Assembly: GCA_017610385.1 (NCBI GenBank)
Contig: JAFCCC010000001.1
Span: 1 to 64,000, forward strand
DNA: 64,000 nt
DNA from: Candidatus Nanohalarchaeota archaeon
Lineage (GTDB): Archaea; Nanohalarchaeota; Nanosalinia; Nanosalinales; JAFCCC01
Reading direction: 5' to 3'
Made by a program: the position numbers and the translations under genes. Each line of letters begins with the position of its first letter. Position 1 is the stretch's first letter. Shown here in pieces: positions 36,372 through 61,897 of this stretch. The notes beneath the pieces are model-generated. The model was given only the letters and a program-made list of their open reading frames with translations, was not told the DNA's origin and ran no database searches.

Positions 36372-39011
36372 TTAACTTGGATATTCTGCGCTTGTCAAAG
36401 TAATTTCACTTACACCTGTTGCTGCTTTGTCGCTAAATGGTGCTACATCATATGTAGCAACTGCTTTGCTTGCAGATCTGGTATCGTCGGCGCTGTGACC
36501 AGCTACGACTAATGCTACTTTTCCTGAGACAAATGCGTCTTCAACCAAGACAACTTGAGCCATACCATCGTGTGCTCCATCTCTCCAGGTATCTAAATCC
36601 CAGACAGTAGAACCTTCTTGTGCAGATAAATCAGCTACCAAAGTATTGATTGCTGGTCCACCTATCAAGATTAAGTTGTTATCGCTCTTAATTGATGGTG
36701 TTACTTCAGTGTCTAACCATGCAGCGTTAGCTAATAAGTCACCTTGTGTGCTTTCTGTGTAGGTAACATCAGTTGAACCGCCACCAATAGTTATAACTGG
36801 TTCTTCTCCTACTGCAACAGCTGCAATGGATTGCTCATCTGGATAATAGATGGTAATTGTTCCTTGTTCGTATGTGTACTGTTTTACGAAAGCACCATAT
36901 CGATCAACTGTTTTGTAGGTGTATGTGTCACCAATCATATTGTCTTTGTAGTTTGTTGCAGGTGCAGATGCATCTGTATAAACTACAGTTGAACTCCATC
37001 CCATTTTCATAGGCGCTGTTCCAGACGTTCCACCAATTGCAATGATTGCATCTCTTACTTCAGATCCACCACTATTCTTGCCTTTTTCTTCTAATAACAA
37101 GACCATTGGATGTAACAAAGGAAGGACTCCACCGATTGTAGTTATATTGGAGGTAGACATACCATTTGTCAAGGCGTATGTAATTCTTCCTGCACTAACA
37201 GACGTTGTTGCATTGGTAATCCCGACAATAGTTGTTCCTGCACTGCCACCGGGTACTTCATAATACGTTGTAGTGAGATTGCCATTAGCCAATCCTTGTG
37301 TTGAAACGTTGTTTAGGAAAGTTAGAAACTCTCCATTTGCTCCCTTGATTAAGGGGAATAGAGTGGTTATATTTCCTGTACTACCGAAGGTTGCTGTGTC
37401 AGTTGAATCTGCGTTCCAGGTAAATTTAGCTACAGCAGATGTTGCGTTGACAAAGTATGTCAATCCATCAATATATGCGGTTGCATTTGTATATCCTGGT
37501 GCTTCCAGATAGATTGTCGTTTTGTCGCCAGACATCATATCTGTTAACTCAACTTGTGGTGTTCCAGATGAATCTCCTACATCATCAATGTTTGATACTT
37601 GGAAGATGTGTGAGAAGTCTCCTTGAGATAGCAACACATATTCGTATTCAGGTACTGCTTCTCCTTCTATTACATGATACACCCTTGCGCTTGTATCTGT
37701 TAGGGTAGGAGTAACTGTTCCTGTGACTGTGTCGTTATCATAACCAATTGACAAAGTCTTTTCATATCCTCTGTAATCAGTGAACTTTAAGGTTTGTGCG
37801 TTATCCCCAGAGGTAGCTAAGTAGGTTTGTGATCTGCCAGCGTCTTCTAAGTCAGGACTTACACCACCGAAAGCCACTTTGAAAGATCCAAAAACTGGGT
37901 CTACAAATGAATTTCCTTTTGCGATGTAATCTCCGGTTGCGTCTGGTGCTGCAACAGCAACTTCTAATTTAGAGATACCAGAATACTGTGTACCTGTATT
38001 AGTTGTATAAGTTCCATCAACAGAAGTTAAACTTGTTCCGGTTTTTACTTTATTTGCATTGTCTAAGCTAATTTTTTCAGAACCTAAGCTCAACGTTGCG
38101 TAGTTCTGTGTTAGGTCTGTACTACTTGCGTAAAATACGCTTTTAATGTAGATATTTAGACCTTCCAAGGTTGTACTTTCTCCTTGTGCGTAAGTTGAAC
38201 CGTCACTTACTCCATTAACTGTAAATGCAACATTGGAACTCGTGTCTACGACAGCCTTAACTACATAGTCTGTTCCACCAACAGTAACTGTTTGTTCTAC
38301 TCCGTGTGTAAATTGATCAGTTACACCATATCCATAAAGAATTAGTGTATTGTAATCTGATCCACTACCAATAGTGTAATCTTTGTTGAACAAAGTTAAT
38401 GTCTTACCTTGTACTCTGGAATTAGATATATTCAATAATTTATTGAACACAACTCTTGCAGTATATAATGGTGCTGCAACATTAGTTCCACCAGTACCTG
38501 AATCTACATACATTACGGGATCTATACTTTCGCCAGATTTTCCAAACGTAACTGTTCGGCTTCCCATGACCAAGTATTGATCATAGGTGTAATCTACACC
38601 TGAAACACTAAGGGTACCAGATGCAAGAAGATTTGGTAATTCGTTTTTAGTTATTGTCGTTTTCGCGCTGTTTATGGCGTCGCCTAAATATAGTTTTGTA
38701 TTTGCAGTGTCTAAGGATTCACCACCTGTTACTGAAACAGATGCTGAGCCTGTTGCTGCAGTTGCGGTTTTTTCTTCGCTTGTTATAGCCAAGTTACCTA
38801 ATCGCTCTGCGATCTGGATACCACCAACTACGTCGGCAGTCATAGCCCCACTCCCAACTACAATTTGTGATGCAATATTTCCATTGCTCACAAAAGGACT
38901 TGGAAAGTCAGCTAGATCAAATGCGGAAACCATACCTAATGTGGCCCCCATCATTAATGCTCCAGATGCTAGTGCGCCAATCTTTCTGATCGTCGCTTTT
39001 AAATTTTGCAT
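36372..39011 (-). CDS. S-layer protein
   Basis: The 879-residue secreted protein has a Sec signal peptide (KIGALASGALMMGATLGMVS, about 11-30), then ADFPSPFVSNGN and VVGSGAMTADVVGGIQIAER. This is the archaeal S-layer N-terminal signature (MJ-type). The body is rich in Thr, Ser, Gly and Val, as expected for beta domains. The C-terminal part again has the VVAGHSADDTRSA type of motif found in the same family. There is no C-terminal membrane anchor. A strong Shine-Dalgarno (AAAGGTG at 39020-39026) precedes the start. It probably covers the cell. Confidence 0.88.
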   Translation of the reverse strand: MQNLKATIRKIGALASGALMMGATLGMVSAFDLADFPSPFVSNGNIASQIVVGSGAMTADVVGGIQIAERLGNLAITSEEKTATAATGSASVSVTGGESLDTANTKLYLGDAINSAKTTITKNELPNLLASGTLSVSGVDYTYDQYLVMGSRTVTFGKSGESIDPVMYVDSGTGGTNVAAPLYTARVVFNKLLNISNSRVQGKTLTLFNKDYTIGSGSDYNTLILYGYGVTDQFTHGVEQTVTVGGTDYVVKAVVDTSSNVAFTVNGVSDGSTYAQGESTTLEGLNIYIKSVFYASSTDLTQNYATLSLGSEKISLDNANKVKTGTSLTSVDGTYTTNTGTQYSGISKLEVAVAAPDATGDYIAKGNSFVDPVFGSFKVAFGGVSPDLEDAGRSQTYLATSGDNAQTLKFTDYRGYEKTLSIGYDNDTVTGTVTPTLTDTSARVYHVIEGEAVPEYEYVLLSQGDFSHIFQVSNIDDVGDSSGTPQVELTDMMSGDKTTIYLEAPGYTNATAYIDGLTYFVNATSAVAKFTWNADSTDTATFGSTGNITTLFPLIKGANGEFLTFLNNVSTQGLANGNLTTTYYEVPGGSAGTTIVGITNATTSVSAGRITYALTNGMSTSNITTIGGVLPLLHPMVLLLEEKGKNSGGSEVRDAIIAIGGTSGTAPMKMGWSSTVVYTDASAPATNYKDNMIGDTYTYKTVDRYGAFVKQYTYEQGTITIYYPDEQSIAAVAVGEEPVITIGGGSTDVTYTESTQGDLLANAAWLDTEVTPSIKSDNNLILIGGPAINTLVADLSAQEGSTVWDLDTWRDGAHDGMAQVVLVEDAFVSGKVALVVAGHSADDTRSASKAVATYDVAPFSDKAATGVSEITLTSAEYPS

Positions 39012-45370: not shown

Positions 45371-45508
45371 GCCACAGTGGCTCAATTGGCAGAGCAGCTG
45401 CTTCGTATTGTAATGAGGAGGACACTTATTCCGATAAAATATGAGGACGTGAACACCCCCCGAACAAGAATCAGCAGCAGGTTGTGGGTTCAACTCCCAT
45501 CTGTGGCT
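45371..45508 (+). tRNA. tRNA-Thr (CGT) with 65-base intron
   Basis: Acceptor GCCACAG/CTGTGGC, anticodon stem GCTGC/GCAGC, loop TTCGTA-intron-A (anticodon CGT), T arm GTGGG-TTCAACT-CCCAT. The intron (45408-45472) lies after position 37. Exon TTC pairs with intron GAA before three-base bulges TAT and TCA; the fourth pair would be G with A. Confidence 0.9.
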
Positions 45509-47607: not shown

Positions 47608-47721
47608 GCGGGGGTAGCCAAGTGGTCAACGGCGATAGGCTCAAGTACTGAATTTGAGATCTGATTTAATGAAGAAACCTATTCCCATAGGGGTTCGTCG
47701 GTTCGAATCCGGCCTCCCGCA
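47608..47721 (+). tRNA. tRNA-Leu (CAA) with 31-base intron
   Basis: Acceptor GCGGGGG/CTCCCGC, anticodon stem ATAGG/CCTAT, loop CTCAAG-intron-A (anticodon CAA), long variable arm CCC-ATA-GGG, T arm GTCGG-TTCGAAT-CCGGC. The intron needed to give a normal loop is 47646-47676. Exon CTCA can pair with TGAG inside the intron (47655-47658) perfectly, or less well with the 3' end (47670-47674), so the splice motif is relaxed. Confidence 0.92.
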
Positions 47722-49218: not shown

Positions 49219-49268
49219 ATATAATCTACATTAATTTTATACATAAACCTTATAAACGTGATGCCACC

Positions 49269-49970
49269 ATGTTCAAAACTTCGCCTGCTGTTTTAAATTT
49301 AAGTCCTAATCTTTCACGCTGTGTGGGGTTGTGGTTAGCGGAAGGAGATAATAAAACTAAATCAGAAATAACATTTACTAATTCTTGTGCCGATTTAGTT
49401 GACTTTTTTGCTGAGACAATTATTCAGGAATTTGCGTTCAAAGGAAATCCAAGAATATACTGTTATTCTCATGAAAATCTTATGAAACTAAAGAAAATTG
49501 GAATCGCCGATTTGCATCCTCTAAAGAAAATTGCATTCGAACGAATGGTTGAAACTTACAAAGAAATTCATTATCCTGCCCATTTTTTGAAAAATAGAAT
49601 TTGGAAAGATCTTAAAGTACCTCATACATCTCAACAACTTTCGAAAAAATCTGATCGTTCTATTGCGAGAATACAAGATATAGTGATACAGCTTAAGAAA
49701 GATGGTAAAATTAAAGATTTTAGAGTGGAAAGTACAAACTATTGGATTCGGAGTGATCAGAATATGATAATCATCTCCAACACAAAAAAGAAATATCTGG
49801 ATCTATTGGGAGCTGAAGCTCTGTCAATAAAAAAAATATCTTCTCATTTCGAAGTGAGACTGCGTTCTTCGTACAAAATTCTTAAGAGATTAGAACAATT
49901 GAGATTAATTAAAAAAGATAATCATAAATGGAGAAAAGTTCATACAAATAAGAAGGTGATTGTTTTGTGA
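49269..49970 (+). CDS. LAGLIDADG-like N-terminus with winged helices
   Basis: Residues 15-45 (CVGLWLAEGDNKTKSEITFT then NSCADLVDFF) resemble one LAGLIDADG homing-endonuclease half domain. Two winged-helix segments follow (DRSIARIQDIVIQLKKDGKI near 130 and KISSHFEVRLRSSYKILKRL near 195). Only one LAGLIDADG-like motif is seen, so it may be a WhiA-like regulator or a domesticated endonuclease, not an active one. Its stop overlaps the GTG of rnhB, which carries an intron. Confidence 0.6.
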   Translation: MFKTSPAVLNLSPNLSRCVGLWLAEGDNKTKSEITFTNSCADLVDFFAETIIQEFAFKGNPRIYCYSHENLMKLKKIGIADLHPLKKIAFERMVETYKEIHYPAHFLKNRIWKDLKVPHTSQQLSKKSDRSIARIQDIVIQLKKDGKIKDFRVESTNYWIRSDQNMIIISNTKKKYLDLLGAEALSIKKISSHFEVRLRSSYKILKRLEQLRLIKKDNHKWRKVHTNKKVIVL

Positions 49971-50674
49971 AAGAAATTAAACTAATATTAGGCATCGATG
50001 AGGCGGGCAGATCTTGAAAGTCTCTTGGTTTTCAGGGGCCCAAAGGGCCTGTAATCGGTAGCATGTTCGTAGCAGGGGCAGTCATAGAAGAAAACCGAGA
50101 ATCTGAATTAAAAAAACTGGGAGTAAAAGACTCTAAAATGCTCAAAGAAAAAGATAGAGAAAGAATGGCTGCGGAATTACCCGGAATTCTTAATAAATAC
50201 GCAGTTAAAGAAGTTACAGCTATGCAAATCGATGAATTAATGAAAACAATTAATTTGAATGTTATTGAAATGCAAATGTTCGCTAAAATAATTCAAGAAT
50301 TAAAGCCAGATAAAGTAATAATAGACCTTCCGGAAAATAATGCTGAAAAATTCATCTTGAAAGTAAAAAAATTCATGGATCCAAAACAGTATAAAAATCT
50401 TGAGTTTGTTGCAGAACACAAAGCAGATGAAAATTATCCGATTGTAAGTGCAGCTTCAATTTTAGCGAAGAGTGCAAGAGAAAAACATGTAAAAGATCTT
50501 TATGGGGAATATGGTTATTTCCGAACAGGTTATCCTCATGATGAAGACACAATAAATATGCTTGAAAGGTATGTTAAAGCAAACAAAAAGCTTCCAGAAA
50601 TAGCCAGACATTCATGGAGTACATCTAAACGAATTTTAAAGAAGTTCGCCCAGAAAAAATTAGGGCAATTTTGA
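49967..50674 (+). CDS. rnhB: Ribonuclease HII, gene interrupted by an intron
   Basis: RNase HII removes ribonucleotides from DNA. The first exon starts at GTG 49967 (overlapping the upstream stop as GTGA) and reads KEIKLILGIDEAGR; a TGA in frame follows at 50015. Removing 50011-50043 joins it to GPVIGSMFVAGAVI, giving the catalytic DEAGRGPVIG. Later motifs are KDSKML near 44-49, the acidic IIDLPENN near 95 and EHKADENYPIVSAASILAKS near 130-149. The spliced protein is 224 residues, normal for the family. Without splicing, translation could only restart at ATG 50063, losing the first active-site Asp and Glu. Confidence 0.9.
50011..50043 (+). other. Bulge-helix-bulge intron in rnhB
   Basis: These 33 bases contain an in-frame TGA. 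Exon GGGC (50005-50008) pairs with intron GCCC (50038-50041). The bulges are AGA (50009-50011) and AAA (50042-50044), each cut after the second base. A nine-pair inner helix joins 50012-50020 to 50029-50037. Cutting and joining gives GGC AGA GGG CCT, reading Gly-Arg-Gly-Pro. The outer helix is weak. Confidence 0.85.
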
Positions 50675-61351: not shown

Positions 61352-61897
61352 ATGTCAATTACAGGGACGCTCGCACAAAATAAAGTTAGAGTTACAAAAG
61401 AAATAGATCAGATTCACTCAGAAAAATATTATGGAAAAATAATTTCTGATTCTGGAAAAGATGTATTAGAATTATCTCTAACAGAAACGATGCATCTAGT
61501 CAATAAAGGAGAATTAACATTAAAGGACGGTAGAAAAAAATTAAATAATGAAGTAGTTTACGAGCGATTCTGCGAAATCGATGCAGAATTTCCACAGAAA
61601 TACACAGTTTATGCGGATTTGCGGGAACGAGGATATATTGTAAAAAGTGGTTTCAAATTTGGTACACACTTTAGAGTTTATTCCAGAGGAGTAAACCCTT
61701 ACAAAGAAGGCCAAAAAGAACAAAAAGAACATACTAAATGGGTTGTACATGCAGTTCCTGAAAATTATACATTATCTTATCAAGAAATGTCAAGATCTGT
61801 CCGTTTGGCTCAAAACATTAGAACTAAAATGCTTTGGGCGGTTGTAGATTCGGAAAATGAAGTCACGTACTATGAGATATATCGTTTAAGACCATAG
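61352..61897 (+). CDS. endA: tRNA-splicing endonuclease EndA
   Basis: EndA cuts bulge-helix-bulge motifs in tRNAs and other RNAs. The catalytic triad is Tyr110 (FGTHFRVYSRG), His127 (KEHTKWVVHAV) and Lys159 (RLAQNIRTKML). The 181-residue single unit would act as a homotetramer or with another subunit. The loop between Tyr110 and His127 is longer than in the short Methanocaldococcus-type enzyme and Lys-rich (KEGQKEQK). The many introns in this window are its expected substrates, including non-canonical sites. Confidence 0.94.
   Translation: MSITGTLAQNKVRVTKEIDQIHSEKYYGKIISDSGKDVLELSLTETMHLVNKGELTLKDGRKKLNNEVVYERFCEIDAEFPQKYTVYADLRERGYIVKSGFKFGTHFRVYSRGVNPYKEGQKEQKEHTKWVVHAVPENYTLSYQEMSRSVRLAQNIRTKMLWAVVDSENEVTYYEIYRLRP

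Follow-up and report, generated by a model that had tools for sequence, protein, structure and literature searches.

Is the gene for RNase HII (rnhB) broken in this archaeon, or is it expressed from a spliced messenger RNA (mRNA)? The question arises from the window, a 64,000-nucleotide (nt) stretch of contig JAFCCC010000001.1 of a Candidatus Nanohalarchaeota archaeon (GCA_017610385.1), which is part of a 788-kb, 18-contig archaeal assembly that is 93.5% complete. In the window, the Arg codon of the catalytic GRG motif of rnhB is interrupted by 33 bases that contain a stop codon. Our analyses of this locus, and of inserts at the same site in other archaea, indicated that the insert is very probably an mRNA intron of the bulge-helix-bulge (BHB) type that the tRNA splicing endonuclease, EndA, would remove, with cleavage and ligation both predicted from sequence. 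By its structure it is a member of a known intron class, but it resides in a new gene and occurs with unexpected breadth.

The Interrupted rnhB Gene

The frame that begins at the GTG at 49967 on the forward strand reads VKEIKLILGIDEAGR, then Ser and TGA, and GPVIGSMFVAG picks up from 50045. Re-reading of the coordinates confirmed the description in an earlier note on this DNA, namely a GIDEAGR frame broken by 33 bases with a TGA and resuming at GPVIGSMFVAG. Exon 1 (49967..50010, forward strand) comprises VKEIKLILGIDEAG and the first two bases of the Arg codon. The intron spans 50011..50043, with its in-frame TGA at 50015-50017, and exon 2 (50044..50674) supplies the third base of the Arg codon followed by GPVIGSMF and the remainder of the protein to the gene's own terminal stop, which is itself a TGA. 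Excision of the 33 bases gives back DEAGRGP exactly, and the GTG start overlaps the stop (TGA, 49968-49970) of the upstream open reading frame (ORF), both as had been proposed.

Profile searches matched exon 2 to PF01351 (113.6 bits) and TIGR00729 (158.9 bits, cut-off 123.3). Exon 2 is open and keeps 67 of the 75 columns that are invariant in six relatives, and RNase HII had only one match in the whole assembly. A second intact rnhB combined with decay at this locus, which the earlier note had named as evidence that would speak against splicing, thus found no support. No group I or group II ribozyme core was matched in the window by Rfam at gathering scores, and the intron is only 33 nt long.

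Structure at the Exon-Intron Borders

Folding placed a four-pair central helix between GGGC in exon 1 (50005..50008) and GCCC in the intron (50038..50041); the corresponding pairs covary in relatives. Three-base bulges lie on opposite strands at the two exon-intron borders: AGA at 50009..50011, with the predicted cut after AG, and AAA at 50042..50044, where sequence and folding place the predicted cut after AA. This central helix and these bulges had been put forward in the earlier note, and both folding and shuffling bore them out. The inner helix described there was also present in the minimum-energy fold (50012..50022 with 50027..50037), its length being 11 unbroken pairs, counting G-U, rather than nine. 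The minimum-energy fold adds an outer helix, AGGC/GCCU, before which the 3' side has five unpaired bases and not three.

When the intron was shuffled with exon 1 held fixed, all four central pairs together with an inner run of at least nine pairs arose once in 200,000 mononucleotide trials and seven times in 50,000 dinucleotide trials. For the 86-nt segment, folding energy by itself was unremarkable (z -1.76, with 12 of 200 shuffles as good) and that of the L032 locus gave a z of -2.22, so that energy was not decisive for either. The register of the cut was informed by another locus, L186, whose intron begins with T after AG. As Arg results there only if the cut follows the second base of the bulge, L186 supports the cut position that had been suggested for the window.

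We also scanned the window for further BHB introns whose removal would join reading frames, which returned 721 + 698 BHB-like candidates. Of the frame-joining candidates listed (17 on the forward strand and the first 25 on the reverse strand), those other than the rnhB intron look like joins of neighbouring genes and were rejected. The inner helix is longest in the rnhB intron, and no second protein intron is claimed for the window.

Introns at the Same Codon in Other Archaea

RNase HII was matched in 27 of 28 genomes of the window's phylum, and the gene was interrupted at this codon in two, the window genome and G013, a member of another family (rnhB locus L056). A scan of named genomes, from which the best 80 loci were kept, identified 11 with an interrupted GRG motif, comprising ten Lokiarchaeota and L056. 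Two more of the best 80, L070 (Woesearchaeota; a frame-shifting insert of 38 nt) and L079 (Aenigmatarchaeota), were seen to be interrupted on reading, and the remaining 67 were intact. In the Asgard archaea, 217 of 227 genomes had an RNase HII match, and at least 18 of the matches listed contained one or two internal stops (TAA, TAG or TGA) and were about 30 bases longer.

A first covariance model was built from 22 introns of equal length, 21 from Asgard genomes plus L056, with the window left out. In a search of 394 archaeal genomes, 30 matches had an E of 0.05 or less and 17 of them were rnhB introns, all scoring at least 38.6 bits; the window intron was found at 45.0 bits (E 2.4e-8) though absent from the training set. 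Ten matches of 26 nt, the length of the intact site, scored at most 26.6 bits, and reading confirmed an intact rnhB for five of these (G347, G026, G022, G006 and G012). The matches at about 22 bits (L224-L226) sit in other genes and were dropped as chance. Over 99 sources the same model scored intact sites at no more than 26.1 bits and the introns it detected at 28.9 bits or above; L079 was missed.

A second model, of 32 sequences including the window, detected introns in 26 of 371 genomes sampled from the Woesearchaeota phylum of L070, in 9 of 156 genomes of the Aenigmatarchaeota phylum of L079 (the genome of L079 itself being missed) and in 35 of 227 Asgard genomes. Of the Asgard matches, 30 were parsed, G170 and G216 were read by eye, and G171, G218 and G219 were unread. 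Six further introned genomes came from the first model; their groups are unassigned and some may fall within the sampled phylum of L070. In all, introns at this Arg codon occur in about 79 genomes from at least four archaeal phyla. The comparison with rnhB of related genomes that the earlier note had proposed therefore returned inserts at the same codon which differ in sequence and length and share the same covarying BHB.

On a FastTree phylogeny of 188 RNase HII proteins (52 introned), introned genes fell mostly within their own groups and at least 18 changes of intron state were needed, a rough count, since the sampling favoured introned genes and the tree has many weak forks. Among the rnhB matches of 18 genomes, we observed no clear case of a large intron enclosing a homing gene; the split matches, which were not read base by base, lay on different contigs, far apart, or close together with no clear sign of such an intron (G117 and G001).

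One match of the intron model, at 28.1 bits (L254, 1501-1541), is not in rnhB and was dropped as an introned rnhB. By eye, it is a hairpin before a sequence that resembles the 3' half of a tRNA, adjoining a LAGLIDADG ORF (PF14528, 26.6 bits), and Rfam reported no tRNA there at its gathering score.

Covariation and Reading Frame

In the 22 gapless sequences, whose alignment needed no fitting, 86.4% of the cells of 13 pairs were paired and there were 27 double changes, compared with 6.8 in shuffled and 6-11 in slid controls; no shuffle reached any of the covariation measures. For the 32 sequences, 89.0% of cells were paired (61.6% shuffled, 29-45% slid), with 96 two-sided changes (28.3 shuffled, 16-39 slid), and four of five measures were reached by none of 500 shuffles. 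Having been made by fitting to the model, the larger alignment is biased in its favour, and related sequences inflate covariation counts. In the 22 and in the 32 sequences alike, the third base of the Gly codon, at which changes are silent in the protein, is paired with the intron without exception (UG 14, CG 8, GC 6 and UA 4 among the 32). Together, these data indicated that the structure has been conserved by compensatory change.

Reading frames were parsed for 63 of the 66 loci from the second model, with DEAG-like and DSK motifs required in the spliced reading; L242 and L259 were unparsed by the script and were read by eye. The 33 parsed non-Asgard introns are 19-41 nt long, with 7, 17 and 9 of them leaving a remainder of 0, 1 and 2, respectively, on division by three. 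Splicing restores the frame in all 33, including the 26 whose length is not a multiple of three, and in the stretch read the ORF runs for 148-240 residues spliced and 7-36 unspliced. The parsed Asgard introns are 30 nt in 30 of 30 cases. Splicing yields AGA as the Arg codon in 62 of 63 loci and CGA in the other. For L079, the best fit of the intron border was one base earlier. In the introned pair L245/L249, exon 2 of rnhB had a ratio of non-synonymous to synonymous substitution (dN/dS) of 0.05. A broader sample added introns of 16 nt (L214) and 52 nt (L213). The L214 intron (reverse strand, motif at 1495) has only two inner pairs and is possibly near the lower size limit of a BHB.

Splicing Endonuclease and Other Candidate Substrates

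The window encodes an EndA of 181 residues at 61352..61897 on the forward strand (TIGR00324, 100.8 bits, cut-off 59.6), as the earlier note had stated. Its residues 22-181 align with the structurally solved EndA of M. jannaschii (1a79; E 1.6e-26), with the YSRG segment separated from the EHTKWVVHA segment by seven additional residues. Each of nine searched genomes of the window's phylum had one match to PF01974, and ten other genomes (Lokiarchaeota and those of L070, L079 and L054) had one or two.

Rfam identified two forward-strand tRNA genes in the window that ARAGORN did not report and that are probable EndA substrates, one with a long intron (45371..45508) and one with an intron (47608..47721). 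EndA therefore probably has other work in this cell, and some RNA ligase is implied. A simple scan did not find a strict BHB in either tRNA intron, and their motifs may be relaxed. Asgard genomes are reported to have abundant tRNA introns, and metatranscriptomes of wetland soil with Asgard archaea exist (PMC11291895).

Based on these observations, we propose that rnhB would be transcribed with the 33-nt intron and that the 3' part of the intron would pair with the Gly codon of the GRG motif to form the BHB. EndA would cut both bulges after the second base, and an RNA ligase, expected to be RtcB, would join the exons, so restoring the split Arg codon (AG, then A) and an active RNase HII.

Weighing of Splicing against Its Alternatives

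Splicing by EndA is supported by covarying inserts at one site, mostly frame-shifting outside the Asgard archaea, and by the presence of EndA. Several points weigh against it. The type of EndA that the window's enzyme resembles, single-gene and M. jannaschii-like, is said to prefer strict BHBs, and the window motif has the five unpaired bases before its outer helix. In the covariation analysis, the number of pairs with any double change was 11 against 9.4 in shuffles and was reached in 40 of 500, and of the 33 parsed non-Asgard introns four have three of the four central pairs (29 have all four).

The 33-nt length of the window insert, a multiple of three with a single TGA, would suit translation of the insert by read-through or recoding of the stop, with 11 residues added to RNase HII, as would the uniform 30 nt of the parsed Asgard introns. 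Read-through fails for the 26 parsed non-Asgard inserts that shift the frame, since their length is not a multiple of three. In addition, the internal stops vary (TAA, TAG and TGA) between Asgard genomes, the window gene itself terminates with TGA, translation of the insert would split the GRG motif, and covariation with the Gly codon is not predicted. We regard this explanation as very improbable, and give just as little weight to the possibility that rnhB is a decaying pseudogene or the insert an assembly error. These are metagenome assemblies, there is an internal stop, and a second RNase H could sit in the missing 6.5% of the genome; yet neither decay nor error fits with the occurrence of inserts at this codon across about 79 genomes, with an open and conserved exon 2 in the window, with the low dN/dS of exon 2 in L245/L249, or with the absence of a second rnhB from the assembly.

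A short hairpin within a reading frame could also be hopped over by the ribosome, as in the programmed bypassing known from phage T4 gene 60 and from byp elements in Magnusiomyces mitochondria. For this, the take-off and landing codons must match, whereas in the window AGA precedes the insert and AAA precedes GGG; most Asgard loci are likewise AGA and AAA, L186 lacks the 5' AGA, and only L056 has AGA on both sides. The pairing extends into exon 1 and covaries, and EndA and intron-bearing tRNA genes are present. Bypassing appears the least credible of these explanations, with hardly any probability left to it.

A LAGLIDADG Gene Linked to the Intron

In many of the non-Asgard introned loci, the gene upstream of rnhB belongs to a single family with proteins of about 340 residues, which carry the motifs CVGLWLAEGD and GFFAGEGN and C-terminal winged helices. 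The gene ends 22-40 bases before the intron (11 measured). AEGD is present in 11 of 11 members and the G-E-G of the second motif in all ten members that possess that motif. The window holds a shortened member of 233 residues (49269..49970, forward strand), which retains CVGLWLAEGD and a C-terminal helix-turn-helix (HTH; TrmB HTH) and is missing about 105 residues, including the second motif, with the frame kept. A TATA-like sequence, TTATAAAC, precedes it at 49250..49257 on the forward strand; this was noted by eye against the archaeal TATA consensus, the promoter scanner used covering bacterial sigma-70 patterns only.

A family profile made from ten members and the window matched introned loci only: 16 of 44 non-Asgard introned loci and none of 130 intronless loci (at least 500 nt of upstream sequence). 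Five of the 16 are broken or partial genes outside the profile (L247, L252, L259, L070 and L246), and a weak LAGLIDADG match at L209 (E 0.0007) was left uncounted. The linkage of gene and intron is a positional and statistical fact (Fisher 2.5e-11, or 7.6e-7 against 51 controls comprising 25 Nanohalarchaeota, other DPANN-like and unassigned loci). The family was matched in none of the phages or plasmids searched, and of 19 pattern matches in IMG/VR contigs none was confirmed.

In L251 and L253, no ATG, GTG or TTG was observed by eye in the rnhB frame between the stop of the LAGLIDADG gene and the GxDEAG motif; judged from these sequences, the rnhB start must fall inside the upstream gene, or translation must be coupled in some other way. 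A conserved ORF of about 334 residues was seen upstream of rnhB in Lokiarchaeota loci (for example L085, L098, L100 and L101). As it accompanies both introned and intronless loci, it is not linked to the intron.

Occupied and Empty Sites

The arrangement of gene and intron relative to an uninterrupted site was clearest from L260, which has both, and L104, which has neither; their RNase HII proteins are 79.5% identical. Positions 387-470 of L260 align with 1897-1980 of L104, a segment that comprises the region before rnhB and its start, and the alignment resumes from 1547 in L260 and 2000 in L104. In L260, the opening codons of the old rnhB now lead into the LAGLIDADG gene, which uses the upstream region and start of rnhB. 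Another start for rnhB (GTG AGT ACA ATT TTA GGC) lies at the end of the LAGLIDADG gene, and the intron is a little downstream. In the original sequence the gene and intron are about 19-20 bp apart, a spacing that the target size of a LAGLIDADG endonuclease would cover. This single pair cannot tell gain from loss. Six other close pairs of introned and intronless loci had no comparably clear match of their flanks, and the only one of them with a LAGLIDADG gene, L213/L030, aligns inside rnhB only. Among the Aenigmatarchaeota relatives, all three states were observed, with intron and gene in L260, the intron alone in L079 and neither in L104.

From the linkage and the L260/L104 comparison, we consider the likeliest history to be an old homing element, in which the LAGLIDADG protein would have targeted the conserved active-site sequence of intronless rnhB and cleaved it there, and repair would then have copied gene and intron together, with the intron destroying the target site. 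That the intron is part of such an old homing element, with homing as the cause of the linkage, strikes us as about evenly balanced between true and false. We place in the same even balance the wider proposal of a two-part archaeal mobile element, which would consist of an EndA-spliced mini-intron of 16-52 nt in the GRG codon of rnhB and a separate LAGLIDADG gene about 20 bp upstream. In such an element the gene would have taken over the promoter and start of rnhB, and the intron would serve as self-protection, made harmless by the host's tRNA-splicing enzyme. The class would extend over DPANN phyla, and over Asgard archaea without the gene. In the window, where the second motif has been lost, the element is probably immobile, and the intron would persist because EndA removes it.

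Several observations count against homing. The gene was not found in 28 of 44 non-Asgard and 40 of 40 Asgard introned loci (some Asgard genomes being included twice). Profile matches behind the LAGLIDADG assignment are weak: PF14528 (LAGLIDADG_3) was matched in 9 of 11 members at E <= 0.01, the best E being 1.5e-5 and most matches falling below the Pfam cut-off in the tables seen, and the best PDB match of the family profile, I-SmaMI, had an E of only 0.034. Relatedness is not taken into account in the Fisher values, few of the intronless controls came from the Woesearchaeota phylum, some loci are the same genome under two identifiers, and the 136 intronless rows hold 129 distinct proteins. 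In addition, the identities of the LAGLIDADG and RNase HII proteins run in parallel (mean 43% each, r 0.85, 11 taxa), and the LAGLIDADG gene is under purifying selection, with a dN/dS of 0.16 in L245/L249 and of 0.28 and 0.20 in distant pairs that are near saturation of silent sites. Parallel divergence and purifying selection point to long co-inheritance rather than recent spread; given the parallel identities, ancient joint inheritance followed by many losses, or else transfer as a single block, is favoured over a recent spread of the LAGLIDADG gene by itself.

The same two features would fit an upstream protein that is a maturase or a transcription regulator aiding the splicing or expression of rnhB, and not a homing endonuclease, with gene and intron anciently co-inherited. 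The predicted HTH regions, the window ORF that has been kept open despite the loss of its second motif, and the old rnhB promoter that apparently serves both genes also suit such a role. The glutamates of the LAGLIDADG motifs are conserved, however, in AEGD and in G-E-G alike, the gene adjoins the intron, and it is broken or partial in the five loci named above, as homing genes often are. Since the intron is kept without the gene in 28 of the 44 loci, the gene is not generally needed for splicing. We consider a maturase or regulator possible but on the doubtful side of even.

A parallel to the proposed homing element is the collaborative homing of phage group I introns, in which a free-standing homing gene lies beside an intron at its target. 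The rnhB loci resemble it in that the endonuclease-like gene is adjacent to, and not inside, the intron, and in that a conserved active-site sequence is interrupted. They differ in that the rnhB intron is of the protein-spliced BHB type and is found in archaeal genomes, and cutting by the LAGLIDADG protein is a prediction only.

Relation to Known Archaeal Introns

The BHB introns of archaeal tRNA and rRNA share the motif and the expected enzyme, EndA, with the rnhB intron, whose host RNA is instead an mRNA. Apart from its own case in a 5' untranslated region (UTR), a 2020 report gave crenarchaeal cbf5 as the only archaeal mRNA with a reported BHB intron (PMC7714728). The 5'-UTR substrate of EndA is likewise in an mRNA, but the rnhB intron is inside the coding frame. 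The study by Yokobori in 2009 describes the cbf5 pre-mRNA intron of Crenarchaeota as patchily present, with gain and loss (PMC2738675); the rnhB intron is like it in being a BHB in a protein gene, in being cut between the second and third bases of the bulge and in its patchy gain and loss. It is unlike the cbf5 intron in gene and phyla, in the use of GRG-motif codons for its central pairing and in the LAGLIDADG gene often found alongside; in addition, spliced cDNA is reported for cbf5, whereas splicing of rnhB is deduced from sequence. Among the open-licence PubMed Central papers listed by our searches, we found no report of an archaeal rnhB intron, and earlier reports elsewhere are possible.

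These findings are of interest because a repair gene of wide distribution carries introns at a single codon in at least four archaeal phyla, the Asgard archaea among them. An introned rnhB will be annotated as broken by gene finders, or given a start beyond the DE and GRG catalytic motif. The introns supply dozens of candidate EndA substrates with known borders, down to the 16-nt intron that is possibly near the lower size limit. Cutting of the empty site by the neighbouring LAGLIDADG protein would be a direct handle on how such introns are gained, and if the two-part element is real, mRNA splicing by EndA would be routine in many uncultured archaea.

Elsewhere in the window, the reverse strand encodes a protein of 879 residues (36372-39011) with a signal-like N-terminus that by eye is surface-layer-like.
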